From Diphasiastrum complanatum (Eukaryota; Streptophyta; Lycopodiopsida; Lycopodiales; Lycopodiaceae), in contig CM055096.1 of the NCBI GenBank assembly GCA_029204225.1, positions 66,996,370 through 67,060,369 on the forward strand: a DNA stretch of 64,000 bases, written 5' to 3'. The translations under genes were made by a program, and so were the position numbers. How positions within the stretch are numbered: the first letter of the stretch is position 1; the number at the start of each line of letters is the position of its first letter. Below, one piece after another: positions 1 through 59,164 of the stretch. The notes beneath the pieces were generated by a model, which saw only the letters and a program-made list of their open reading frames with translations, did no database searches and was not told the origin of the DNA.

Positions 1-254
1 GGTGAACACCAATTTGACAGATTGAGAATAATCAGCATACTCTAATTCAGGTACCTCTTATTGTATGCTGCTTAAAACTTTTGGCTTTGTTGCATACCGA
101 GAGTTCTTGCTAAGATATTCTGAACAGTGACGCTCTCCTTATCTGGTCTAACTATTCAATATCAGTTAAGGCTCTGTGGCATGCATGTCAGTCATTATAT
201 TTGATCCCATACTATTCCGTACAGTAACTTTGTAGCGGTTGCCTTTTCAAACAG
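1..254 (+). other. Intron sequence of PGM
   Basis: Non-coding sequence upstream of the first visible PGM exon. It ends in a pyrimidine-containing acceptor, TTTTCAAACAG. The exon that should precede it (ending in the first two bases of a Lys codon) was not found here. Confidence 0.6.
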
Positions 255-886
255 GTTAATCAAACAAGTTAGACCAGATGTTGCTGATGTAGAAAAGGCT
301 GATGAATTTGAGTATAAAGACCCAGTTGATGGCTCCATCTCAAGCCATCAAGGTATTCGGTATCTTTTCCAAGATGGCTCCAGACTGGTAAGTTCTGTAA
401 CTCATTTCACATATAAGCATGGTTTATCGTCTCTTTACTTTCAAATCCAGTATGAACCATTGTATATCAGCAAGACCTTTCTCAAAGCCAAGAAACTATT
501 GCAAAAATATGGCATATTATAGGTATTCCGTTTGTCTGGAACTGGTTCGGAAGGTGCAACAATCCGCCTGTACATCGAGCAGTACCAGTCTGATTCCACC
601 AAAATCGGGACAGAGGCCCAGGATGCTCTTGCTCCCCTTGTAAGTTTGAACCCCTGTTCAACTTAAAGTTGTCTTATTCTTAAGTCGATGTCATGGCTTT
701 TCAACGTGTTCCATCAGCAGACAAAGCTGGAGATATTGTGAATTAAAGGGAGCTTAGTTTTTCTCTTTCTGAGTTTGAATTATACATCTGAGAAGTGCTA
801 ATCATGGCTGGCAGGTTAAAGTGGCCTTGAGCCTCTCAAAAATGCAGGAGTTTACTGGCAGGTCCAGCCCAACTGTCATAACTTAG
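255..886 (+). CDS. PGM: Phosphoglucomutase, cytosolic type: last three exons (5' part outside window)
   Basis: Interconverts glucose-1-phosphate and glucose-6-phosphate in sucrose and starch metabolism. Three exons read in phase: 255-387 (enters with a split Lys codon), 523-639 and 815-886 (stop TAG at 884-886). Introns 388-522 and 640-814 are GT-AG with GTAAGT/GTAAG donors. Recognisable blocks are [11 protein letters not shown], then HQGIRYLF, then the phosphate-binding loop [19 protein letters not shown] in exon 2, and the C-terminal [15 protein letters not shown] end typical of eukaryotic PGM. The final domain IV is therefore complete and undamaged. I found no convincing preceding exon in bases 1-254, which look intronic. 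Ending in VIT without further sequence fits plant PGMs. The short open frame at 419-643 is an intron-spanning read-through of exon 2, not a gene. Identification rests on strong recall of the family sequence. Confidence 0.93.
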
Positions 887-1870
887 CAATGGAGAGCTAG
901 GTAATCTATAGTAACCATATTATTTTTTTAAAGGCTTGTCTGCGAGGATAGGTTTCCTCAAGTCAGTCAAGATCAAAAAGTTTTCAAGCTACCAGTGTTC
1001 CAGACTCATTAAGGTACCGTAGGCTAAAGAACTGTAAGAAACCAGATTTCTGTTAAATCATTATCTTGTCAGGATGGAGTTTTATATCCTTCCAGAGAAC
1101 TAGATTTTAGGATCTTTCTGAGATAAACCATTTTTGGGTAATGGTTTTTGGATAAGCATATGGAAGTTTATCCAAAACTTTTTTTTTTGGGGGCGGGGGT
1201 CTTCCTCAATGGGAGGGCCTTTGCCTTAGGTCCAGTCCCTGACCATGGGGGAAGGCACAAGGCCTTGGACCTTCAACTGCGTATTTGCCAAATGAGTTTT
1301 TTTTCTTTTCTAAATGCTACTGTTTTTTCATATAAGTCTCTAGAAACTCAAAAATTTTATGTGAACAGCCAATGAATGAACTCCAAGTAGCAATTTGACC
1401 TTCCCTTGCTAATGACTGGATGCCACATAGCACTTGGACCTTCCGGCATAAGGCAGTCAGTCATTTGGCTGTCCACATAAATTTTTTAGAGAAAGGATCA
1501 GTGAATGCTTATGGATGTTGAATGCTTCCTTGCTTTTTGATTCATGCTATCACTATTGTTCAGAGCTCAATTGCTTTGTTCTTTCTCGTTGTTATTACAG
1601 AGTATTGTTTCAGAAAGAATGCGACTCTGTCTGCATTTAGACTTGTACTCTTTATGACTGAATAATCTTTGTTCCAGTAACCTAAGTCGTGTTGTGCTGT
1701 GTTAAATGCATCTTTATTTATGTTTTGATTGACTCAATTTATGCAGATGAACTTATTTGTAGATTAAACTTTTTATTTAACTGATAATCTGTGTTGATCA
1801 TAATGCCTAAGTTCCGCACTATTTCGCTTCCACAATTAAACTATAAATCAATCTAGTTTGTGCATGCCTA
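887..1870. other. PGM 3' UTR and intergenic sequence
   Basis: About 1 kb after the PGM stop. It holds a T8-G5 homopolymer junction near 1180-1200 and no open frame with protein-like composition. Nothing else recognisable. Confidence 0.5.
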
Positions 1871-2010
1871 TGGAGTTGATTGTTTGGATCCAGTGACTTC
1901 GAAGCTGTGATCAAGTAGAGCGTTCTTCGAGTTTTGAAGTCGTCTTGAATCCGCTAGATGTAGATTCATGCACCGAGGATTTTGTCATTCCTATGCACAC
2001 AATCCCAACA

Positions 2011-2021
2011 TGGTATCAGAG
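2011..2021 (+). other. Primer-binding site of copia-1
   Basis: TGGTATCAGAG is complementary to the 3' end of plant initiator tRNA-Met, the usual primer of Ty1/copia reverse transcription. It directly follows a CCCAACA end, as expected for a 5' LTR ending in CA. Confidence 0.8.
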
Positions 2022-2135
2022 TGGTTATAGAGCTTATAGTACCAGAACAATTGCTCTGATACAGTGTAGACGCTTATTATAATTGTTTCCAGTCATATAA
2101 TCTACTATCTGCATACACTCATCTTGAACTTCCAA

Positions 2136-2880
2136 ATGGATTTGCAATCACAGTCCGCTCTAATGGTAGACAAACTCGATGGTTCGAATTACCATTTATG
2201 GAAATTCAAAATGAGAGTAGTACTGATGGCCAAAGAACTATGGGAAATAGTTGTAGGAACCGAACTAATTCCCAATGTCGATGAGCAAGCCATTTCCAAG
2301 TGGAAGCTCAAGGATGACAAGGCTTTTGTCTTGATCACCCTTAACATCTTCGACACGCAGATTGGCCATATCAGACAAGCCCGATCTTCAAAAGAAGCTT
2401 GGGACATATTGAGTACACTTTACGAAGTGAGAGATGCCACTTCAAAGTTGCATCTGAGGAGAAAGTTCTTCTCACTCAGATGTCAGAAAGTGATGATGTT
2501 CATAATCACATTAATCAATTCAAGACTTTGTTAAAGCAAATGGCAGCAATAGGTTCACTGACACTGTCATGACCTTATTGTCGAGCTTGTCGTCCTCTTA
2601 CGAATACTGGGTGATGATTTCTACTCCTTCATCCAGAGTCACAATCATGCAGCTGCAGGAGGAAACTCGAAAGGATGGAGCATCCTTGTCCTCCATCAAT
2701 GACTCGCAGGCTCTATTCTCCAAGAAGAACATGACAACAATCAGAAGTAGTCAAAGAAGCAAGGTCTGCGACCCAGAATCAGCAATTCGCTTTGAACAAG
2801 AAAAGATTGTTATGCAAATACTACAAAAGGACAAACTGTGAAATCCGAGACTGCCGAATCTTGAAACAACAACAAGAAGA
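2136..2880 (+). pseudogene. copia-1 gag polyprotein, frameshifted
   Basis: Nucleocapsid precursor of a copia element. From the ATG at 2136 the frame reads MDLQSQ..., LDGSNYHLWKFKM and KEAWDILSTLYEVRD, the retrotransposon gag (UBN2-type) pattern. This frame ends at 2534. The domain continues in another frame at 2569-2700 (TLLSSLSSSYEYWVM). A zinc-knuckle position near 2805-2855 reads LCKYYKRTNCEIRDC. Compared with C-X2-C-X4-H-X4-C, the second Cys is Tyr and the His is Cys, so the knuckle is destroyed. The closest relatives in this window are the minus-strand gag at 44479-45004 and the fragment at 9948-10554. Confidence 0.8.
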
Positions 2881-2990
2881 AACAGTTGGATCAACAAGCC
2901 AATGCAGCTATCAACGCGAAGCAAAATTTCAAAGACGACGACGAGTAGAAAGCTTTCATGGTGAATCATTAACATGTCGAACAATAAGAG

Positions 2991-3700
2991 GAATGGTTCA
3001 TCGATTCTGGAGCGACACAACACATGATGAGCCATCAAGAATGGTTTATCGACTATTTGGCCTATAGCACCAAAAGGTTCGTTCCCCTCAGAGACAACAA
3101 CTCACATGTAATCGAAGGTGAAGGTATTGTTAGATTGAATTTTCTTCATGGATTGTCGAAGCTGATACCAAATGTATTGTATGTCCTGAGTCTGATGACA
3201 AATTTGTTGTCGGCCAGTCGGATTACTGATTTTGGACATAAGGCAGAGTTTGAGACAAATTCATATAGGATTCTTAATAAATGTAAGAGAATTCTTGCAC
3301 TCAAAAAGAGACAAGGATATCTCTATAGGCTCACTCGTTACTCTGCGACTGATCGTGCTTTAAGCAATTCAGTACCTGCTAATAAAGAATTGATTTGGCA
3401 TTATAGACTTGGCCACCTTCATCATACATCAATTACTGACATGTCTAAGCATTCTTCAGTTTTTGATTTAGACGACCAAATGGTTGACCCTTCTGTCTGC
3501 CAAAGTTGTATAAAAGGAAAGCAGACATGAAGACCATTTAAGTCAAATCAAGAACATATATCTAAAGATTTGCTAGACATAGTTCATACTGATATATGTG
3601 GCCCAATGCAAAGACCATTACTGCTTGGTGCAAACTTCTTTATCACATTTATTGATGACTATTCTAAAAGAATTGATGTATATTTCATGAAGCACAACTG
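2991..3700 (+). pseudogene. copia-1 protease and integrase N-terminus, truncated
   Basis: The aspartic protease active site DSGAT is at 3003-3017, preceded by EEWFI. A continuous frame runs to 3530. It includes NVLYVLSLMTNLLS and the integrase zinc-binding region (LIWHYRLGHLHH..., C-X2-C in CQSCIKGKQ). After a TGA at about 3528-3530 the same frame goes on: DIVHTDICGPMQ (first catalytic Asp), then FFITFIDDYSKR. It stops near 3700. The rest of integrase, with the second Asp and the Glu, is absent. RT sequence follows at about 3880, so roughly 1 kb was deleted. Confidence 0.75.
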
Positions 3701-3879
3701 ATACATATCGAAATACTATTCGATTCCTTCAGGTAGTCAGCCTGTACAGTCAAATTCAGAGGACAATAAAGAAGCTGCTACTTAGGAGCAGCCGACACAA
3801 AGTCGAATTTTGCAACTAGAAGATCAACACAAATTCAAGTTTAGCCTGTTCGATACACTAATGAGTTTGCTCACTATGC

Positions 3880-4735
3880 TATTCAGGAGTCGACCATAGT
3901 TGAAGAAGCTATGTCGCAGGCCGATTTAGATCTTTGGAATGAAACTATGGACAAGGAGTACAAGTCACTGCTGAAGAACAATACATGGACTGTCATCAAA
4001 CTGCCAGTAGACAAGAAAGTCATCAATTGCAAATGGATACTTAAGATCAAATACAAAGTAGATGGCAATATCGACATGAGAGAGGCTTGACTCGTGGCAA
4101 GGGAGTTCTCACAAATTCCTAATATCGACTACTTCAAAACCTTTAGCTCGGTAGTCAAACATGCTTCTATCTGATTGCTACTATCATATGCTGCATCAAT
4201 CGACCTTGAGGTACATTAGATGGATGTACAAATGGCATTCCTCAATGGGGTTATTGAAGAGGACTTCTATATGATCCAACCAGAAGGCTATGTCCTTAAT
4301 GGTCAAAAAGACCAAGTATGCAAACTCCATAAAGCCTCATACGGTCTGAAACAATCGTCCAGACCAGCTCATGCATAATTCCATGGGCCCGGGTCTAAAG
4401 TTATCGAAGGAGCAATGTCCTCAAACCGATGAGGAGAAGGCCGACATGAAAGGGTATCCATATCAATCAATCATCGGATCGCTGATGTATGCTATGATCT
4501 CCACTAGGCCTGATCTTGCATACGCCATCAGCTCCTTGAGCCAATACATGGCTAACCCTTGTATGATCCACTGGAAAGCTCTTTTAAGAGTAATCAAATA
4601 TGTACGAGCCACCATTGACCTATGCATCTGTTATGGATATGTTGATCCATTCGATATCCATACACTTCATGAATATACATATGCGAATTGGGCAGAGGAT
4701 ATTGACACCAGAAGATCGACTGTTGGATCCAGTGA
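3880..4735 (+). pseudogene. copia-1 reverse transcriptase and RNase H, broken
   Basis: RT begins with LWNETMDKEYKSLLKNNTW and CKWILKIKYKVDG, with in-frame stops at about 4088 and further on. FLNGVIEEDFYMIQPEGY follows at 4240-4290. The frame breaks near 4365 after ASYGLKQS, and it resumes at 4371 in sequence from beyond the catalytic palm (YQSIIGSLMYAMISTRPDLAYAISSLSQYM). The YVDD motif is lost. RNase H is cut after DIDTRRSTVG. No function is possible. Confidence 0.78.
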
Positions 4736-4776
4736 CTTCGATTGTTTGGATCTAGTGACTTCGAAGCCGTGATCAA
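4721..4776. repeat. Duplicated short repeat at the 3' end of copia-1
   Basis: TGTTGGATCCAGTGACTTCG (4721-4740) is followed at once by a second version beginning GATTGTTTGGATCTAGTGAC (4740-4776). The second copy matches 1878-1914 over 37 bp with two differences. It may be an LTR remnant or a deletion-junction repeat. Confidence 0.6.
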
Positions 4777-4931
4777 TCGGTAGAGAAGTAGCCGATGGTG
4801 AGATATTTGATCTCATTACAGAGACATGCACCACCAAAATTGTGCACATTTAGCTTGTACCTACAAACATTGAAAGCAAATAGTAAAAAAATTTCGATTT
4901 CAATATAATTACTATTATAAATTAAGGATGT

Positions 4932-5563
4932 AAGTAAGCTTGAACCCGTAAGGAGTATCAGCGATGCATAGGGTGTAGGGTCTTCTCTTTACAAACTTGG
5001 AGATCTCCCTCGCATCACCTTGTTGTATTGTGTAAAAACAAGGAGGATCATCAAAGACTTGTGAAGAAACTTTCCTTGGGATCAACATCAATGCTTGAGT
5101 CCCCAGGCTTTTGAGATTCTGTTTTCCAGTCTTTGTAGTTGAGGCTCTTTACCATCGCCTATGGCACGTTCATGAAAAGCTTGTGTTAAAAAACAATAAA
5201 TGATTAAATGCAAGCTTTTTGCAAATGAATTAAAAAATAAAAATTCTAAATTGAAAAACTAAAATCACCTTTAAAATTCCTTTCCCATTTTTGCAAGGCT
5301 GAGCTATCCGTCAGCAACTCTCGACAGGACACTCCCAATAACATCCTTGGAGGGAATGCCACTAAACAACGATCTGGAATAGAAATTCAACCCAAAATTG
5401 TAAAATACGGTAAAATTTTTTTGCAATGCAAAGAAATTTGATTCAAAATTGTCTTACCTAAGTGAAATCTCAAGATGTCAGCTTCCGTCAACCTACGCTG
5501 AATAGAAATCCCGTCAAGCTTATGCTTGTTGTAATAGAATGCCCAGATCGCTAAAATCGAGAG
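4932..5563 (-). pseudogene. Unrecognised multi-exon coding remnant
   Basis: I do not recognise this protein. On the minus strand an open frame at 5563-5458 reads AIWAFYYNKHKLDG then RLTEADILRFHL. It ends at a GTAAGA donor, phase 1. An acceptor (TCTATTCCAG) opens an in-phase exon 5373-5269 with PPRMLLGVSCRELLTD and SALQKWERNFK, ending at GTGATT. Downstream, 5175-4932 holds a long open frame containing DDPPCFYTIQQGDAREISKF and RRPYTLCIADTPYGFKLTY. How it joins exon 2 is unclear, because the obvious phase gives a stop. Composition, splice signals and open phase across an intron argue for a real gene or transposon gene that has decayed. It lies divergently to the DUF7869-like gene at 7.2-8.8 kb. 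No promoter or start codon was found. Confidence 0.4.
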
Positions 5564-5599
5564 CTAGAGAGCGCAAATAGAGAAAATGAAAAGGCAAAG

Positions 5600-6130
5600 G
5601 TGAGTTATGCCATGCCCGTGTTCTCTTAAATATTATACGGGAACTGGGTGAGTGTCTTCTTTTAAGTTTTAAGTTTAAGAAAACTGGGTGGGTGTCGTCA
5701 TTTAAGTTTGTAAGGTGGCTTTTCCTCACATTTCAGTCACTAGAACTAAATATATTTCAAATGCTTATAACTTTTTCGTTGTAGCTTGGATTAAGACGAT
5801 GTAAAAAGAAAAAATAATTGAAAATTTTATGCTTTTTGCAACTAGCACTGTAAACAAGAATCCGAGTAACAATAAGGAGGTTATTAAGCAATTGTTATTA
5901 AAATATCAAATCAATTTAAAATTTGACTTAGGAAATTCATATCTTTTTTTATTTGGGTTTGCTTGAGAAACTCTAACGAATTAAAACAATGGCTAAATTG
6001 GTAGGGTTGAGTCCAAAGAAGATGACAAGGCTAACTCCACCTTTGTGGTTATTGCGAGTCAACACCTTAAATTTTGTTCGAACAATAACATTGGCCTAAA
6101 ATTTTATCCTAATCCTAAACACAATTCTGT
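5600..6130. other. AT-rich non-coding sequence
   Basis: No supported ORF or RNA. A 20-bp phrase (near TTTTAAGTTT and AACTGGGTG) is repeated around 5641-5705. Otherwise nothing recognised. Confidence 0.4.
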
Positions 6131-6845
6131 CTCGTAACTTTTGCCCTAAATTTTGTAAACTACTTAAGCATGTGGTCTCCTGTCTAATTTTATCCTGACC
6201 ATAACGTCAACCTAAAATTTTAAGGTAATCATAAATTCAACAGTCTTTGTGCCCTAACTTTTGCTCTAAATTTTTATTTGACTACATAAGGATGTGGTTG
6301 CTTGTCTAAAATCATTTTGTGCTTATGCCTTCAAATGTTCTTGTTTGCTCTGGTGTTGCCTGGCTATCATATTCTATTCAACTAGCATACCAACATTTTC
6401 ATCAAACCTATGACGAGCATAGCTTTCTATGCTTAGCATAAGAATTAAGTCTCTAGTTTTTTTTCTCTTGTCAACTTATTCCAACTCTCGTAACTTTTGT
6501 CCGTAAATTTTGTAAACTACTTAAGCATAACGTCGCCTGTCTAATTTTACCCCGACCATAATGTCAGCCTAAAATGTTAAGGTAATCCTAAATTCAACAG
6601 TCTTTGTGCCCTACTTGTTGTCCTAAATTTTTATTTAACTACTTAAGGATGTGGTTGCTTGTCTGAAATCATTTCATGCTTGTCTGGAATCATTTCAAAT
6701 GTTTTTGTTTGTTTGTTGTTGCATGGCTATTATATTCTATTCAAACTAGCATACCATCATTTTTTCAAACCTATGACAAGCATAGCTTTCTAGTTTGGCA
6801 TAGAATTAAATCTCTAGTTTTTTTTGTTTCTTGTCAACGTATTCT
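6131..6845. repeat. Two-copy direct tandem duplication, period about 356 bp
   Basis: Copy 1 (6131-6486) and copy 2 (6487-about 6845) both start CTCGTAACTTTTG. They share the phrases AATTTTGTAAACTACTTAAGCAT, AAATTCAACAGTCTTTGTGC, AAGGATGTGGTTGCTTGTCT and CATAGCTTTCTA in order, with scattered substitutions and small indels. There is no coding content. Confidence 0.88.
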
Positions 6846-7253
6846 AACATGTGTTGAGAGTAAAAGTAAAATCGTAGTTGTTTTAAATTTTTTCTAAGGT
6901 ATGTCCTAAACAGTTTAGCAATGGAGAGTTCATCTCCTGCTGCAATTTATTACGATGGAGTTTCTACGAGTTCCATCATCTGACATTAAGGTTGCAACTG
7001 TGTATCACGAAGTGACTTCAGGTTCAATACAAGCTACTGAATTTTGTATGACTTCATCTTTGTCTTTGTGTCTCGTAAATCCTCGAGCAGTGTATTACTC
7101 TTTCACCGGAGATTCTTAGTGGTTCGGAATCAAGCAAACACCCAGTTACTAATTCTAGTCAGTTCACCATCCCACGACAAGGAACTCTTTCTTTGAAGAG
7201 ATCAAGACAGGCACGAAGGCCCATAATGTCCAATGTTGTGAAGATCTATATTT

Positions 7254-8846
7254 TTGAATGTAGCAGAGATTTCTGAAAGCTTAGAGCCTTCTACTAAAAA
7301 CCAAGATAATGAAGTGGCAAAGAATCAACCCACACCTATAATAGGTACGAAATCATTACCAATTACCAGCACCTTTAGGTGCCAATGTTGCAAGTCCCTC
7401 ATGCAAAAGCAGAATCCAAAATTCAAGGTTCTATTCAAAGTCGGATTGTTTATTCGGACTCCTTAACTGTAAAAGTATGGTTGACGCATTTTATAGACGT
7501 GCATGCTAAGAAACATCCAAATTCTCTATGTTTTCACCTTCCAAGCAATTTCACAAGATTGAAAATATTCTTGATGTACAAAGATTTTGCAAAATCAAAA
7601 AATGTTCATCATCTAATTTATTCTTATTTCGTGAAACTGTGGAAGAGAGATTTGGTCTAGTGAAAATCTTCAAAAAATCTAGAATGTCTATCTATACCAT
7701 CTGTGAGCAATTGAAAGCGCTCAGAGAACAAACAAAAAGTCCTCAGAAAAAAAGTATTTTATGGATATTAAATTTAGTCTTTTTTTTTTTTCAAACACAT
7801 TTTAAATTTCTTTTATGCTTTCAATTTAGTAAATCATTTTTTTATGTGATTTCTTTTAGCGGACATTACAAAGTCACTTCTAATTCACAGAGACAACAAA
7901 AAGACAAGAGCTTGCAAAACACATGAAAAAGTGTTTGGAGTTTTCTCAATGACACCTTGTAGTTTAAGTGTATTTCAATTATCCCAATGTTCGAAATGAT
8001 CCAAACTTGACCATTACCATAATTTACAAAACAATAGTTGAATTCGACAATAGTCTTCTTGAGATTTTCTACTTGCAACTTGATAATAATGCCAAAGAAA
8101 ATAAAATCAAACACTACTGACATATTTATCCATGTTGGTTGCTTTAAAAATTCTCAAAAAAATTAAAATAGGATTTTTATTGGTGGGTCACGCTCACGAT
8201 CAAATCAACCAAATGTTTAGCTGCTTTTTGAAAAAGCTAATACGCAAAAAAGTTTTTTTTTTGCCAGTACTAGGAAGTATTATTGAGTCATACACCCGTA
8301 CAACAAACGTGTTTTTACTACGACGCACATTTGATTTTAGAGATTACATCAAAACATCGGAAGAACATTGCATTGCATCAATAAATGATATTAGTTTTCA
8401 ACATGAATTCAAAATTCCAAATAGTATTGGTGGCATCACATTATTGTGGGAAAACAAGTTTCAAACTTTGTGGCATGGTTACCTTATGAAGGAGTTCGTT
8501 TCTTACAAAGCGTGGCCTCTTCTCAAGTTACGCTTGCACCTTTGTGTCATCTAATTTCTACTATGGAAGAGCAAAGGGCTCAAAGAGAACATCATCCAGT
8601 TGATCTGTTTGCGGCACTAAATTTTTTGGAAACGACCATTCAAGCAGCATACCAATTTTTTGATGAGTTTGATCGACATTGGTGCATGGATTTTTTTGAA
8701 GAGCAAATGCTAAGTGTGCTTAAGTTGGGAGATGCAAACTTGTTTGAGGAGTTTCAATTTAGACTATCAAAACACCATAAATATTTGTGTATTTATTTAT
8801 TTTGGACATTTTTATTAAAAATTCTATTTTTTTTTACATGGTGTTA

Positions 8847-8847
<1 letters not shown>
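7254..8847 (+). pseudogene. DUF7869-like protein gene, decayed (possibly transposon-derived)
   Basis: Blocks in order match a family I recall as DUF7869-containing proteins, known from animals, algae and some plants; the function is unknown to me. A Cys-rich start (FRCQCCKSLM) is at about 7372-7400. Next come VWLTHFIDVHAKKHPNSLCF and HLPSNFTRLK (7472-7560), then FGLVKIFKKSRMSIYTICEQ LKALREQTKS (7654-7743). After an interruption (7744-7860), the block NLTITIIYKTIVEFDNSLLE then IFYLQLDNNAKENKIK lies at about 8000-8115. IKIGFLLVGHAHDQINQMFS and RKKVFFLPVLGSIIESYT continue at 8165-8300. A last block, WLPYEGVRFL plus an acidic tail, is at 8446-8790. At least four frame changes or stops separate the blocks. 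The conserved LDN and GHTH-like motifs could be metal-binding acids of an RNase H-like fold; that is speculation. The central third of the family appears lost or intronic. Confidence 0.6.

Positions 8848-8848
<1 letters not shown>

Positions 8849-8878
<30 letters not shown>
8849..8878 (+). repeat. Poly-T tract
   Basis: A run of about 30 T directly after the DUF7869-like remnant. It would be poly-A on the minus strand, possibly a retroposition scar or simple slippage. Confidence 0.8.
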
Positions 8879-8879
8879 G

Positions 8880-9620
8880 GCTAAAGAGCATATTCTTTGT
8901 AAATTTTTTTTGTGGCTTTTGAAAATTTTCATGAAAAAACATGTTTTTGGAAAAAATTTAAAATTCAAATAAAGGTTACCCGCTTTTAGGATTTTGACCC
9001 ATTTCAAAAGATTTCACGTTACTAATTTTTATATACTTTTGTGTCAATGATCTAGTTGTGATGACATAACAAAAGTTGATTTTTATCCCAATGTGTAACT
9101 TGTAAATAGAAGAGTAACGCTACAATATATTGCTCATAATGTGGACGTTGTTGTTGTTAAATTTTTTAACATACACTAATCTGAATCAAAATAATGTTCC
9201 ACATACATATGATTCTTTACATTCAAGTCATCTTTGTTGTAATTTTTTGTTCAACTCCTCAGGTGGAATGCAAGGAATAACTCCAATAATATGAAGATTT
9301 TAAGTTTTAGTGCAATTACAATGAACACATAATGCAAATCACATACATTGGCATAGTATCAGTTTCAATTTTATCAAGATATAATGAAACATGTGCACAA
9401 AAAGAGAAATATTTTCACTTTGATGGATAAAAAATGAAAAAAGTTGCTCAATATAACAAGATCTGCATTTGCAAAAATTCGATTCGATACAAAGAGTTTT
9501 TACAAATCTACATTCCCAATAATGTTAGCATATGCTATGACTGCACACAAAGTATAAGGTGTGATCATTAGAAAAAAAGCTATCCTAGATATAAGATCAA
9601 ATTTCTCAACTAGCTTGGTT
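8880..9620. other. AT-rich sequence without features
   Basis: No open frame with protein character, no RNA gene signature and no repeat seen. Confidence 0.4.
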
Positions 9621-33910: not shown

Positions 33911-36900
33911 CATCTTTTAAGAGACCACGCCTGCGTATGTCTAAATTCATTCGCAAACGCATAGTGTCAATAAGAGGCTCTGGCAAGACAGAAATCAACC
34001 ACCAAATGCACGAATGAACCCAATATGGGGTGCATCTTGGCTCATAGCCAATTGATCTTAGAGCAACTTTTGCATAGGTATTTGCAGATGGAACTGTAAG
34101 GGAGGCCCGTTTTATCTTGGCCATCTTTGTTGCCACATATAGAGGAACCTGTGCAATACCATGAATTGTTTCAACATGAGGACTACTTGTATTGTGTAAA
34201 TTACTCGAGTACGAGTCTGAGCATACAAAAGTTGCATATAAATGTAAAATGCATGGATAAGCAATTTATCTCAGAAAAAAACAGCAAATCAAGTGATCAC
34301 ATAGCTGCACTGCAACATGTACAACTTGAGACCATGCAATTTAACAAAGAAATATACGACTCCACTCAGCAAAACAGTCTGAAACAGCTTTCTTATTGAA
34401 CCAAATAGCATGTACCTTAAGCCATAAAAGCTCATCATTCAAAATTAAAAGCCAGGCATAGCAGAATAGTATAACCAGGTGCAGTTTCTAGTACTTCAAT
34501 AGTCAGCTTTCAATCACAGTAGGGACATCTTTCAAAAAATTTAGGGGAGGAAATGAGCAAAGGTGTGGCACCTGCATGATTAAAAAACACAACTAGCCAT
34601 TCACTTCTCTAGTGGGCCCATGATCCAGAGTTAAAGCTTCCAAAATAGAAGAGACAAATTTTCGGTTAATAGATTCACAGCAGCTCGCAACAGCCTTACA
34701 ACTTGAAAAACGAAACAATTTCTAGCATATTTCAACTACTCAATGAAATGAGATTGACAACGATTCATATCTCTACAAAAGCTCTTACGAACTTGTGTAG
34801 TGATGATGCAGCCAAAGATTATATTACAACCTTGCTGTAACTGCAAGGTCCTTAAAAGAGCCTTGCACGTTGAAAAAGTTGATTCTATTGACTTGTGGCA
34901 ATAATTTCCAGCTGAAATCAGCTTCACAAACCTCATAGCCTGCCTCACACTGTTGTCATTTAAGGTAGCTGTTACTATGCTTTTGAAAGATGAAGCAAAC
35001 TGTATTTGCTTTAAGGTTTGCAGCAAAAATTGACCAAATAATCTTACCAATTGGGCAAATATTTGACAAGTACAACAAAAAGCGGGTTCCAAGGTGTTTT
35101 GTTAGGCACAATATTATAGATTTTTGTCAGAAGAAAATTTTGTCAACTCTTCCAATAGAAAGAGTGATAGACTATGAACAATCAGTAGAGCAGTTTTACC
35201 AGCCAAAGATGTTTTTGAATAGCCCTTGGCACATTTTCACATCCCACAATATTTATAGAACTTTACCCACAACTTAAAAAGAGCCCTACTTCAGGAAATC
35301 AAGGGAGTGTAAACACTTGGGCCTGGAGTGCAAATGAAACAAAAATGCTTACATAAACAGGTCAATTCCACTATTAAAGCAATACGTCTTCAAAAGATTT
35401 TGAATGTTTCTTTTTTTCTATCCTTCCTCCACTTTGGATAGCGTGCACCATGGAACTGTTAGAATGTGGTCTACAGATCAACTTAAAGTTTGGTTAGTTA
35501 GACTTAAAATTCAAAGAGTAATATAAACTTGATATGAGTTTTTTCACATGTTAGAAAATGAATTTAGAGTGTCAAATTGCTACAAATACCTTTTGTGGCC
35601 AGAATCTCAAAGAATCCTCTTACATCCTTTTATGCAAGTCAGTTGCATGAGTCCTCCTTTTGAATATCTTCAACATTGTTCACCCCGATGTCACCAGCAG
35701 TCATGATTGTAAAAAATACTGATCTAACAAATAAATGATGTCTCCTCTGGAAATGACTCTTAGTCATAAAAGATTATCAAGTGATTAACAGACCTTTATG
35801 GACAACCTATTAATCTCTAATTTAGCAATACTTTAGAATTCTCAAATTGATCCTAACATAAAAAATTCTTACAAATGGTGAAGGCTAGTTAAAGCTTTTG
35901 ATCTCCAAGCAAAAAAAAATTGAATTAGAGACCGAGTCTTAATTTAGATCTAAAAATAGAAAAAACTAGGTTCATTGGTTTTCGTGAGATTGTACAGAGA
36001 ATAAAGTTCTTTGATCACAACCAGATCAATCAATCAGTGGGACGTATGTATATTTATGAAATGTTTTAAATATATTGTAAGCTGCACAATCTCATTTAGT
36101 TACAATCATCTGACAAATGAATTTTGAAAAGAAAACTTTGAACATGTTACCTTTACATCAAGTACAATGTGGATTTCATTTTCAGCACTACAATCAGAAT
36201 CCCATTCTCAACTTAGGAAACTTAACTCTAGTCTCCAATCTCAATTCAAAACAAAGAAATGGGAACAGAGTAAAATGGTAAATACCTGGCATTGCACATC
36301 AATACCACTGTGCTTGTACTCCACATAAAGAGATCGTGAAAACTGATCTACGAACCTGCATTTTATGTCTAAATGAGAAGATTGTTCCATCCTAAAAGTA
36401 TGCAGAAATTATTTAGACAATCAAAGAAAAAAAGACGATTCTTAACAGAGTTTATGATATCTCGTAATGTGGAAATAACATATAAAGTATGGTGGTTAGC
36501 AGTAAAGAAGTAATTCAACCAGAAACCAAGGAAAAATTGAACTAAAGAAACAGTGTAGCTGCGGTTGAACATTAGTCTGAAGGCGTATAAGGAGAACCAC
36601 GCGTATTTCAAAAAAATTGCGGTTGTCAGAGCATGAAATCAGGAGTGTTCTTGCATCTTCACATGCAGCAAAAGGATAAGCTCCAAGATGAAAGCTCTTT
36701 AAAAACTGGTATATTTCAATAACAAAACAAATCAATAACTAAAAACGATAAAAGATTTCAAATCTATCTTTCATTCTGATTAACTTCATATCAATGCTGA
36801 TTCCCAAGGTTCACAAAAAAAACAATAGACCGCATCAAATAAAGCCGTACGCTTTCGTTGCGGCATAGAGCGTGTACAGAGGATCTGCTGGCATAATAGA

Positions 36901-37479
36901 TGCTGCTCCTGATCCGATATTGATAATGGCTCCTCGCTTGCGTTGCAACATTCCAGGCAATACTAATTGCACCATGCGAGTTGTGACATCGATATTGACC
37001 CGAATCAGATTACTCATCAATTCAGAATCTAGTTCATGGAAGAAACGAGCATAAGGATAAGACATCCCCACGTTGTTTATCAATATGCCAACCTCTAGCC
37101 CAGTCACAGCCTTAGCAATACTAGCCATGCCAGCATCCAGATCCGGATGAGTGAAGTCCACCTCTGCATACCGTGCATCCACTCCATAGCCGGTCTGTAT
37201 TTCCTTCACCAGATCCTCGAGCTTGGTCTTGGATCGCCCAATCAGCACCACATTGATCCGCTTCTTTGCCAACTGAAAGCAAAAAGCACGGCCGATGCCA
37301 TCAGTTGCACCAGTCACCACTGCCCATGTGCCATAGGTCTTGGATAGGTTCTTGCCAGGCCGCAGAAACGCCACCCACACGCCTTGCAGGAGAAGCAGTG
37401 CGAGCTTGAGGAGATAGATCACTCCCAGCGAGGCAAGAGCAAGTAGCACCATCTGCTCACCCACAACGCCTCCTCCCAT
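33894..37479 (-). CDS. KCR1: Very-long-chain 3-oxoacyl-CoA reductase (elongase beta-ketoacyl reductase)
   Basis: Second enzyme of the ER fatty-acid elongase: reduces 3-ketoacyl-CoA with NADPH to supply very-long-chain acids for waxes, sphingolipids and suberin. Three exons on the minus strand: 37479-36851, 36355-36286 and 34148-33894, with GT-AG introns of 495 and 2137 bp. The splice gives 317 residues, against about 318 in Arabidopsis KCR1. I chose the ATG at 37479; the open frame extends upstream only through a Glu-rich stretch without ATG. Residues 10-39 form a hydrophobic anchor. TGATDGIG (56-63) binds NADPH, followed by INNVG (134-138). The catalytic set is Ser190, Tyr205 and Lys209 (YAATK). 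Exon 2 reads FVDQFSRSLYVEYK. Exon 3 reads VPLYVATKMAKIKRASL and ends DAQKKE, a C-terminal lysine signal typical of ER return. No lesion is seen, so it is probably functional. Confidence 0.95.
34149..36285 (-). other. KCR intron 2
   Basis: 2137 bp between exons 2 and 3, donor GTATTT, acceptor TTGCACAG. Some short frames (for example 35092-34736) but no transposon signature recognised. Confidence 0.85.
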
Positions 37480-37620
37480 TTCTCCTCCTCCCTCTTCTTT
37501 TTCTTCTTCTGCCTCTTCTTCTTTCTCTTCGAACAAATCTCTTCTTCTTCTTCTTTCTTTACCTCACAGCTTCCCCCTCCTCCTCCTCCTGCTTTTATTT
37601 GCTTATTTGGCCCTAACTTC
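37480..37620 (-). promoter_or_regulatory. KCR 5' UTR, GA-rich
   Basis: Just upstream of the start the minus strand is a run of GAA/GAG/AGA triplets (CTT-rich on the plus strand) up to about 37560, then GGAGG repeats. GA-rich 5' leaders are common in plants. No clear TATA box was seen in the next 150 bases. Confidence 0.4.
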
Positions 37621-58648: not shown

Positions 58649-59083
58649 TCAAAGTTCTAAAAAAGCAATAGAATGTGCCCCTACTCGTGATGCAGCCGCA
58701 CCTGTTGTTGCAACTAACAAAATTCTTTGTCCCTTTTTGATGCATTTGTAATTGAGGTATCGTATAAAAAATGTTTTGCCACTTCTTGGAGTGCCAGATA
58801 GAATAAACAATCCTGATTTTGAGCTTGTAATAATTTTATATATCTTCTCTTGTTCATCCGTAAGAGATGAATTCTGCATGTATTCAAATTCAGATTCCAA
58901 GCCTAAATCATTTTTCGTATTTTGTGGCAAAGATATACTTTGTGCATTTTCAATTGTAGAATTTGCCATTGTTAATGTTTTGTTGGTAAGTGATTTTTTT
59001 TTGTAGAAGTATATTTGAAATTTTTTGTCATTCTTCTTTTTCAAGAAGTTGTCTATTGGCATATTCTGCAATATACATATCAA
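58649..59083 (-). pseudogene. PIF1-like helicase N-terminal part, Helitron type
   Basis: 5'-3' DNA helicase of superfamily 1. The frame carries SSLTDEQEKIYKIITSSKSG (Q-motif region), then LFILSGTPRSGKTFFIRYLN, whose GTPRSGKT is a Walker A box (the family norm has Gly for Arg), then GQRILLVATTGAAASRVGAH, motif Ia. It stops at 58649 after about 144 codons, so Walker B and all later motifs are missing. A purine-rich Lys/Asn region precedes the domain. Confidence 0.75.
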
Positions 59084-59164
59084 TATCTCTCTCTTTTTCG
59101 ATGTTCTTTGAGAGATAGCTGATTATATCTATTTGTAATACTATTGATGGGACACTACTTGATA

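Follow-up and report, generated by a model that had tools for sequence, protein, structure and literature searches.

A dead copy of a probable DNA transposon with a DUF7869 gene and a predicted bacterial-type DNA methyltransferase gene in Diphasiastrum complanatum

The window analyzed here is a stretch of 64,000 nucleotides of Diphasiastrum complanatum (assembly GCA_029204225.1, contig CM055096.1, positions 66,996,370 to 67,060,369 of the forward strand), and positions are counted from its first letter unless a locus is named. It holds a broken gene of the DUF7869 family on the + strand, pieces of a predicted DNA methyltransferase gene upstream on the opposite strand and, between the two genes, a direct duplication and remains of a palindrome array (Table 1). 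The methyltransferase gene and the palindrome array had been missed in the earlier note on this DNA, which was made by a model from the sequence alone. The peptide blocks by which that note recognized the + strand gene are all present and are spread over three + strand frames: LTHFIDVHAKKHPNSLCFHL lies in 7379-7657, LQLDNNAKENK in 7968-8117, GFLLVGHAHDQINQMFS and LGSIIESYT in 8105-8551, and WLPYEGVRFL in 8425-8844. The family name given there is right. The profile search that the note had proposed returned Pfam PF25273 (DUF7869) rather than no match, with E-values of 3e-9 and 5.8e-22 for two pieces that fit neighboring stretches of the profile and that both exceed the curated cut-off of 26 bits. 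The match is far above chance. In the same Pfam search, none of six other pieces of the locus matched a family over its cut-off.

The gene had also been called decayed, and comparison with L041, a relative elsewhere in the genome, bears this out: in addition to frameshifts, the window copy has suffered three internal losses. About 350 bp are missing at 7421|7422, within the 5′ part of the gene; about 125 bp are missing near 7946-7949, where this 5′ part stops; and about 780 bp, which form the C-terminal open frame of L041, are missing at 8754-8758. At the position of the second loss L041 encodes LGLVIDGMDQ, which contains the first of three conserved Asp residues. The window copy could thus hardly work even if its frames were ignored, because this loss takes the first conserved Asp with it. 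The third conserved Asp is replaced by Asn (GHAHDQINQ, compared to GHTHDQIDQ in the aligned copies L036/L037). An origin as a processed pseudogene was ruled out: the end of the copy shows no poly-A, and the sequence lost at the 125-bp gap is coding sequence with the first Asp, not an intron.

Table 1. Features of the locus (positions within the 64,000-nucleotide window).
Feature	Position	Strand	Basis
Dead copy of a DNA transposon (probable)	4773-9020		Homology with other copies; best explanation
Decayed methyltransferase piece upstream of the AdoMet-binding motif (predicted)	4776..4889	-	tblastn
Methyltransferase piece with catalytic-type motif, ADTPYG in place of DPPY (predicted)	4921..5052	-	tblastn
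Two blocks, 4936-5124 and 5123-5359, joined here	4936..5359	.	DNA search of own genome
Junction without the palindrome array of relatives	5359..5360	.	Comparison with L041
Direct duplication of about 357 bp (6130-6485 / 6486-6848) between the two genes	6130..6848	+	Also present in L041
Three decayed 19-base palindromes ACYTATGCTNAGCATARGT, at 6406, 6425 and 6769	6406..6787	.	Pattern search
DUF7869 gene, 5′ part	7254..7949	+	Own-genome matches; comparison with L041-L043
DUF7869 domain, profile positions 27-76, with LQLDN	7968..8117	+	PF25273, 3e-9, 37.2 bits
DUF7869 domain, profile positions 74-177, with GHAHDQINQ	8105..8551	+	PF25273, 5.8e-22, 78.7 bits; alignment
Protein part behind the domain	8425..8758	+	Comparison with L041
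Run of 29 T within the 3′ untranslated part	8850..8878	+	Flanks common to L041 and L042
3′ terminal 21 bases, one arm of a probable terminal inverted repeat	9000..9020	-	3′ tails; pattern match

Comparison with other copies further revealed that the interval 7254..8847, given previously for the gene, is too narrow. Homology extends from about 4773, the far position to which it could be traced, to 9020, which is a fixed end. The poly-T run that had been taken for the end lies inside the copy, as the sequences on both of its sides are also found in L041 and L042. The direct duplication noted upstream of the gene is present as described, but it is part of the element and not of its surroundings, since L041 has the same duplication (L041 1799-2150 / 2151-2451).

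In the genome of origin (1.74 Gb in 5176 contigs), a first-look search for DUF7869 yielded 2953 candidates, and each of the 150 that were scored exceeded the Pfam cut-off, which rules out the alternative of a single-copy gene; about two-thirds of these 150 carried a stop inside the match, as counted by eye. None of 14 control genomes had a DUF7869 match over the cut-off, and pattern-limited searches of viral contigs and GTDB contigs returned no prokaryotic or viral relatives. A search of the genome with the window DNA returned 1806 candidates at first look. Scoring of 40 of them recovered the window itself and 39 other places, which matched it at 82-88% identity in their best stretch. Most of the copies that were fetched sort into three lineages (A, B, and C). 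The window copy belongs to lineage C, in which a sublineage C proper (L041-L043, L054, L057, and the window) and a sublineage C′ (L036-L039, L067, and L068) differ by about 30% in their DNA. As separate observations, two pairs of DUF7869 matches with near-equal scores lie in opposite orientation about 4.2 kb apart (C21:21671177(-) / 21675937(+) and C1806:32120(-) / 36846(+)), and each is possibly a palindromic pair.

Several lineage C copies carry methyltransferase pieces upstream of DUF7869 on the opposite strand. The upstream piece in the window was matched by tblastn with the piece from L067 over 38 amino acids (63% identity, E 8e-12) and falls in a DNA block common to other copies, while the piece with the catalytic-type motif was matched with the pieces from L054 (70% identity, E 2.6e-17) and L067 (57% identity, E 3.5e-16); a short further match was found at 5072-5119 (E 0.007). 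The piece from L057, with its one in-frame stop read as X, matched PF01555 (3.1e-12, 47.4 bits, cut-off 26.7), and either half of this piece alone fell below the cut-off. The same piece also matched DNA methyltransferases in PHROG (5e-11), and its closest relatives of solved structure were CcrM (6.9e-9) and RsrI (2.5e-7). The motif D-x-P-Y-G comes first and LDLFSGSGTT comes last, which is the order found in the permuted beta-class enzymes. Motif IV reads D-I/V/T-P-Y-G in L054, L060, L064-L067 and the window and DTTYG in L068, so that neither DPPY nor SPPY occurs in the copies examined. Given these matches and motifs, the second gene is predicted to encode a beta-class DNA amino-methyltransferase of bacterial type, specific for N6-adenine or N4-cytosine, and the separate pieces appear to be exons of one gene. 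A first-look search of the genome for PF01555 gave 1605 candidates; all 150 that were scored exceeded the cut-off, many of them without stops.

Between the methyltransferase and DUF7869 genes of lineage C copies sits an array of the palindrome ACYTATGCTNAGCATARGT, whose unit is also cited as ACCTATGCTnAGCATAGGT, with a spacing of about 28 or 41 bp. L043 contains 10 such palindromes, compared to none in any of 200 shuffles, L041 contains 16 (three of them outside the array), L038 five and L039 six; with up to 4 mismatches, 17 are found in L067 and 16 in L068, again with some outside the array. The same search found none in the lineage A and B loci or in the lineage C loci L026/L037 and L042. 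The window retains three matches with up to 3 mismatches in its 64 kb, where 0.11 would be expected and none of 100 shuffles reaches three. What it lacks is the array itself: the two blocks that are joined in the window are separated by about 540-1120 bp wherever both were listed for another copy, and window position 5359 corresponds to position 1019 of L041, where homology with L041 starts directly behind the L041 array. The palindromes may be binding or methylation sites.

We also noticed repeats of a different kind in lineage A. Upstream of the lineage A copy in L035 (oriented positions ~100-4400) there are long repeats with units such as AAAATTTTCGCGA, which are perhaps the lineage A counterpart of the palindrome array. 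Lineage A copies further have an upstream frame, CPLPYPHDDFDRLGDV ... ISIDVIAKKFLWDNADI (L035 4718-5365 on the - strand, L007 477-1014, and L040 oriented 1233-1505), on the same strand as DUF7869; by eye it is unrelated to the methyltransferase, and a Pfam search returned no match over the cut-off.

The 3′ end of lineage C is well defined. Ten of 14 lineage C 3′ tails reach a common last base, which corresponds to window position 9020, and continue into unrelated DNA; of the others, L041 diverges about 60 bp before this base, L043 breaks off earlier, and no match was found for L045 and L049. The consensus of this end is ...CATTTCAAAAGATTTCGTGTT, and the terminus pattern matches the window with 2 mismatches where 0.02 matches would be expected in the window. 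The last bases of the C′ copies L036, L039, L067, and L068 are likewise TCGTGTT or TTGTGTT. The copies are thus dispersed and share an end that is followed by unrelated DNA, as in DNA transposons with terminal inverted repeats. A duplicated TA target was ruled out by eye, with a shared T followed by A in only three of the 10 tails.

The earlier note had also proposed a search for terminal inverted repeats, and its outcome was mixed. L061 and its near-copy L062 have, at the opposite (methyltransferase) end, the sequence AACACAAAATCTTTTGAAATG, which is the inverse of the 3′ terminus and fits the pattern AACACRAAATCTTTTGAAATG at 21 of 21 bases in L061, a fit reached by none of 200 shuffles. The DNA that follows this terminus in L061 is unlike the DNA of the 3′ end, and it is therefore another end of the element and not a stray 3′ end. 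L061 was read at the methyltransferase end, short of a DUF7869 end, and target-site duplications were not recovered. A terminal inverted repeat is thus likely for lineage C on the basis of this one pair of loci, and L054, L057, L060, and L063-L068 showed no inverted counterpart on their methyltransferase side. A short-word search for inverted repeats in the flanks of L031-L033 and L035-L037, which extended to lineages A and B, was negative. The shared start of L067 and L068 (positions 1190 and 1076, respectively) is doubtful as a true 5′ end, as L066 365-635 matches L067 915-1184 at 69%, and both copies probably lack their 5′ end. The near-identical pairs L031/L032 and L033/L034 were not taken for young insertions; on one side or both, their identity continues as far as sequence was retrieved, which makes them probable segmental duplications and uninformative on ends.

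Both genes were once under purifying selection. Ten pairs of DUF7869 genes were compared in their open frames, and in two of them dS was saturated and gave no value; dN/dS was 0.16, 0.16, 0.07, 0.18, and 0.14 in the more distant pairs and 0.54, 0.99, and 0.46 in the close pairs. For the methyltransferase, seven pairs were compared: four had dN/dS values of 0.11-0.15, two had 0.26 (one of these two pairs is fairly close, with a dS of 0.29), and the closest pair had 0.76. The pattern seen for DUF7869 is the one expected if selection acts on the gene during movement of the element and is nearly absent once a copy is inserted, which fits a transposon gene. The previous suggestion that the locus belongs to a transposon is accordingly upheld by a dispersed, high-copy element with a fixed 3′ end in lineage C and a selection pattern like that of transposable elements.

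Whether the methyltransferase belongs to the same element as DUF7869 has to be weighed against the alternative that it is a gene of a different repeat that was inserted by chance beside some of the DUF7869 copies. In L067 and L068, the methyltransferase on the - strand, the palindrome array, and DUF7869 on the + strand follow one another within one stretch of about 8 kb, and the aligned parts of these two loci are about 90% identical across both genes; L068 lacks two stretches that L067 has. The divergent order is also found in L054, L057, and the window. Other methyltransferase pieces, N-terminal or from the middle of the protein, were recognized by eye in translations of L038, L039, L041, and L055, in which tblastn with the catalytic pieces found nothing. 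Nesting is supported by the lineage C copies in which no methyltransferase pieces were seen (upstream of L042 and L043, by eye, and in L056, L058, and L059) and by L060 (G000 C7:61203501-61205400), in which the methyltransferase piece shares its strand with the nearby DUF7869 and is perhaps from another nested copy. In the flanks of lineage A and B copies, as far as they were read in passing, no methyltransferase was noticed. It also agrees with the low number of pairs. Among 150 of the 2953 DUF7869 hits and 150 of the 1605 methyltransferase hits that were sampled, three pairs lay within 10 kb of each other, compared to 0.26 expected, and two of these were divergent and one was not; none of the 39 further lineage C places found with the window DNA lay within 30 kb of the 150 listed methyltransferase hits. 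The excess of pairs over expectation counts in favor of one element. Against nesting stands the recurrence of the order methyltransferase, array, DUF7869 in L054, L057, and the window as well as in L067 and L068. Chance nesting is unlikely to produce this recurrence, because the two sublineages differ by about 30% in DNA. Together with the alignment of L067 and L068 over both genes, this makes a separate nested repeat quite improbable.

We propose, with a probability of about 0.65, that window positions 4773-9020 are a dead copy of a multi-copy, two-gene DNA transposon whose transposase is most likely the DUF7869 protein. The proposal draws directly on the copy number, the fixed 3′ end, the divergent methyltransferase pieces, the arrays, and the past selection on both genes. 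A less damaged element would be about 8 kb or longer and would carry two divergently transcribed genes. The + strand gene would encode the DUF7869 protein, which would bind the element, pair its ends, and cut and join DNA, using three acidic residues: the D of IIDG, the D of Q(L/A)DN, and the D of GHTHxxID. The - strand gene would encode the beta-class DNA amino-methyltransferase acting on N6-adenine or N4-cytosine, and the palindromes, as sites of binding or methylation, could serve to regulate both genes or to mark the DNA of the element itself. Movement by cut-and-paste and methylation of the arrays are both presumed in this model.

The assignment of transposase function to DUF7869 is predicted from the conservation and placement of these residues. 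Among the copies with sequence at the respective position, and with eight near-duplicate loci dropped beforehand, 25 of 29 retain the first Asp at its motif (counted by eye), and the other two are retained in 27 of 29 and 28 of 30. The order of the hydrophobic stretches suggests that the three Asp are placed as in an RNase H-like nuclease, and the conserved order of strands and helices could fit such a fold. DUF7869 could instead be an accessory protein, such as a DNA-binding or regulatory protein, with the recombinase being an unrecognized protein or supplied by another element. This would agree with the failure of sequence comparisons to link DUF7869 to any transposase (no sequence match among solved structures in PDB, no NCBIfam match, and a probability of 0.1% when aligned by hhalign with the copia integrase, for which the profiles were thin), and with the presence in the element of a second, unrelated enzyme and of long coding stretches without a family assignment. 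Nevertheless, DUF7869 is the one protein seen in lineages A, B, and C alike, while their other contents differ, it was under purifying selection, and its conserved Asp residues appear to occupy the places expected for an RNase H-like nuclease, which makes an accessory role rather unlikely. A decayed and expanded family of host genes, with no transposon involved, is hardly credible. Its genes seem to have introns and DUF7869 is unlike any catalogued transposase, but against it stand the dispersed copies (150 of them confirmed, about two-thirds of these with a stop, and as many as 2953 at first look), the common 3′ end with unrelated flanks, the position of L068 inside a copia element (read by eye), and the near-neutral change between close copies.

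Eukaryotic DNA transposons comprise several superfamilies, and DUF7869 may be a known transposase to which specialists have given another name (Sola, KDZ, Academ, Novosib or similar). This is compatible with a DUF7869 transposon and would touch only part of the novelty. Such an identity is a real, if unlikely, possibility; a search of a limited set of papers returned neither the word DUF7869 nor the peptide GHTHEDIDQ, which follows the motif of the earlier note. To our knowledge, a methyltransferase partner is part of none of the Sola, KDZ, Academ, and Novosib superfamilies.

The features of the element can be compared with those of several known systems. Pfam DUF7869 (PF25273), which is shared over the curated cut-off by two window pieces and the 150 scored copies, carries no function in its name and is found here as part of a mobile element that has a fixed end. 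The element resembles the cut-and-paste transposons with DDD/E transposases in its high copy number, its dispersal, its fixed end, its probable short inverted repeat, and a protein that shows selection when distant copies are compared and nearly neutral change among close copies. It differs from them in its two divergent genes with a palindrome array in between, and the analysis recovered for it neither a link at the level of fold nor a target-site duplication. Fungal KDZ transposons are linked with TET/JBP, and retrotransposons with C5-methyltransferases; these elements likewise carry or accompany DNA-modifying enzymes, which, as far as is known, are of other classes and are combined with other transposases.

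The beta-class methyltransferases of PF01555, such as CcrM and RsrI, share with the second gene the domain match and the motif order with IV first and I last. Unlike CcrM and RsrI, the gene described here is found at high copy number in a probable plant transposon, with D-I/V/T-P-Y in place of DPPY in motif IV. In bdelloid rotifers, N4CMT is a PF01555 enzyme of the permuted type that was captured by a eukaryote and deposits 4mC at transposons, and it was stated in 2022 to be without eukaryotic homologues (PMC8885841). N4CMT is encoded by the host and has transposons as its targets, while the gene described here is carried by the probable transposon itself, and the likeness is at the level of the domain. 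Among the references of the same paper is a preprint about N4-cytosine methylation in the sperm of Marchantia (PMC8885841), which suggests that plants can have an N4-cytosine methyltransferase and that a PF01555-type enzyme in a plant is not necessarily new.

In a limited literature search, no description of a eukaryotic transposon with a PF01555-type methyltransferase was found. The combination of DUF7869, as a probable transposase, with a bacterial-type methylating enzyme in one DNA transposon may thus be new. We further propose, tentatively and at somewhat less than even odds, that the element represents a new superfamily, that DUF7869 is a new DDD transposase, and that the element's own methyltransferase marks the array and the ends with 6mA or 4mC, which would govern transposition or shield the element from silencing by the host. 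If this is true, a protein family without a function would gain one, a further kind of DNA transposon would be added to those of plants, and a transposon would be able to place base marks of bacterial type (6mA or 4mC) on the DNA of a plant whose genome holds no fewer than 150 confirmed copies of the methyltransferase gene and as many as about 1600 at first look. Whether and how 6mA and 4mC marks arise in plants is debated. A transposon-borne enzyme would make the origin of such marks directly testable and would be one possible source of the genes responsible.

Three other sequences were observed near these copies or elsewhere in the window. A helicase-like fragment at window positions 58649-59122 on the - strand (AAA_30, 1.7e-7; PIF1, 2.7e-6) is possibly Helitron debris. 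The open frame at window positions 36835-37563 on the - strand is presumably a host gene of the ketoacyl-CoA reductase (KCR) type. Upstream of the C′ copy in L037, a long open frame (249-1751, 501 amino acids) looks like a host gene of the F-box/kelch type.
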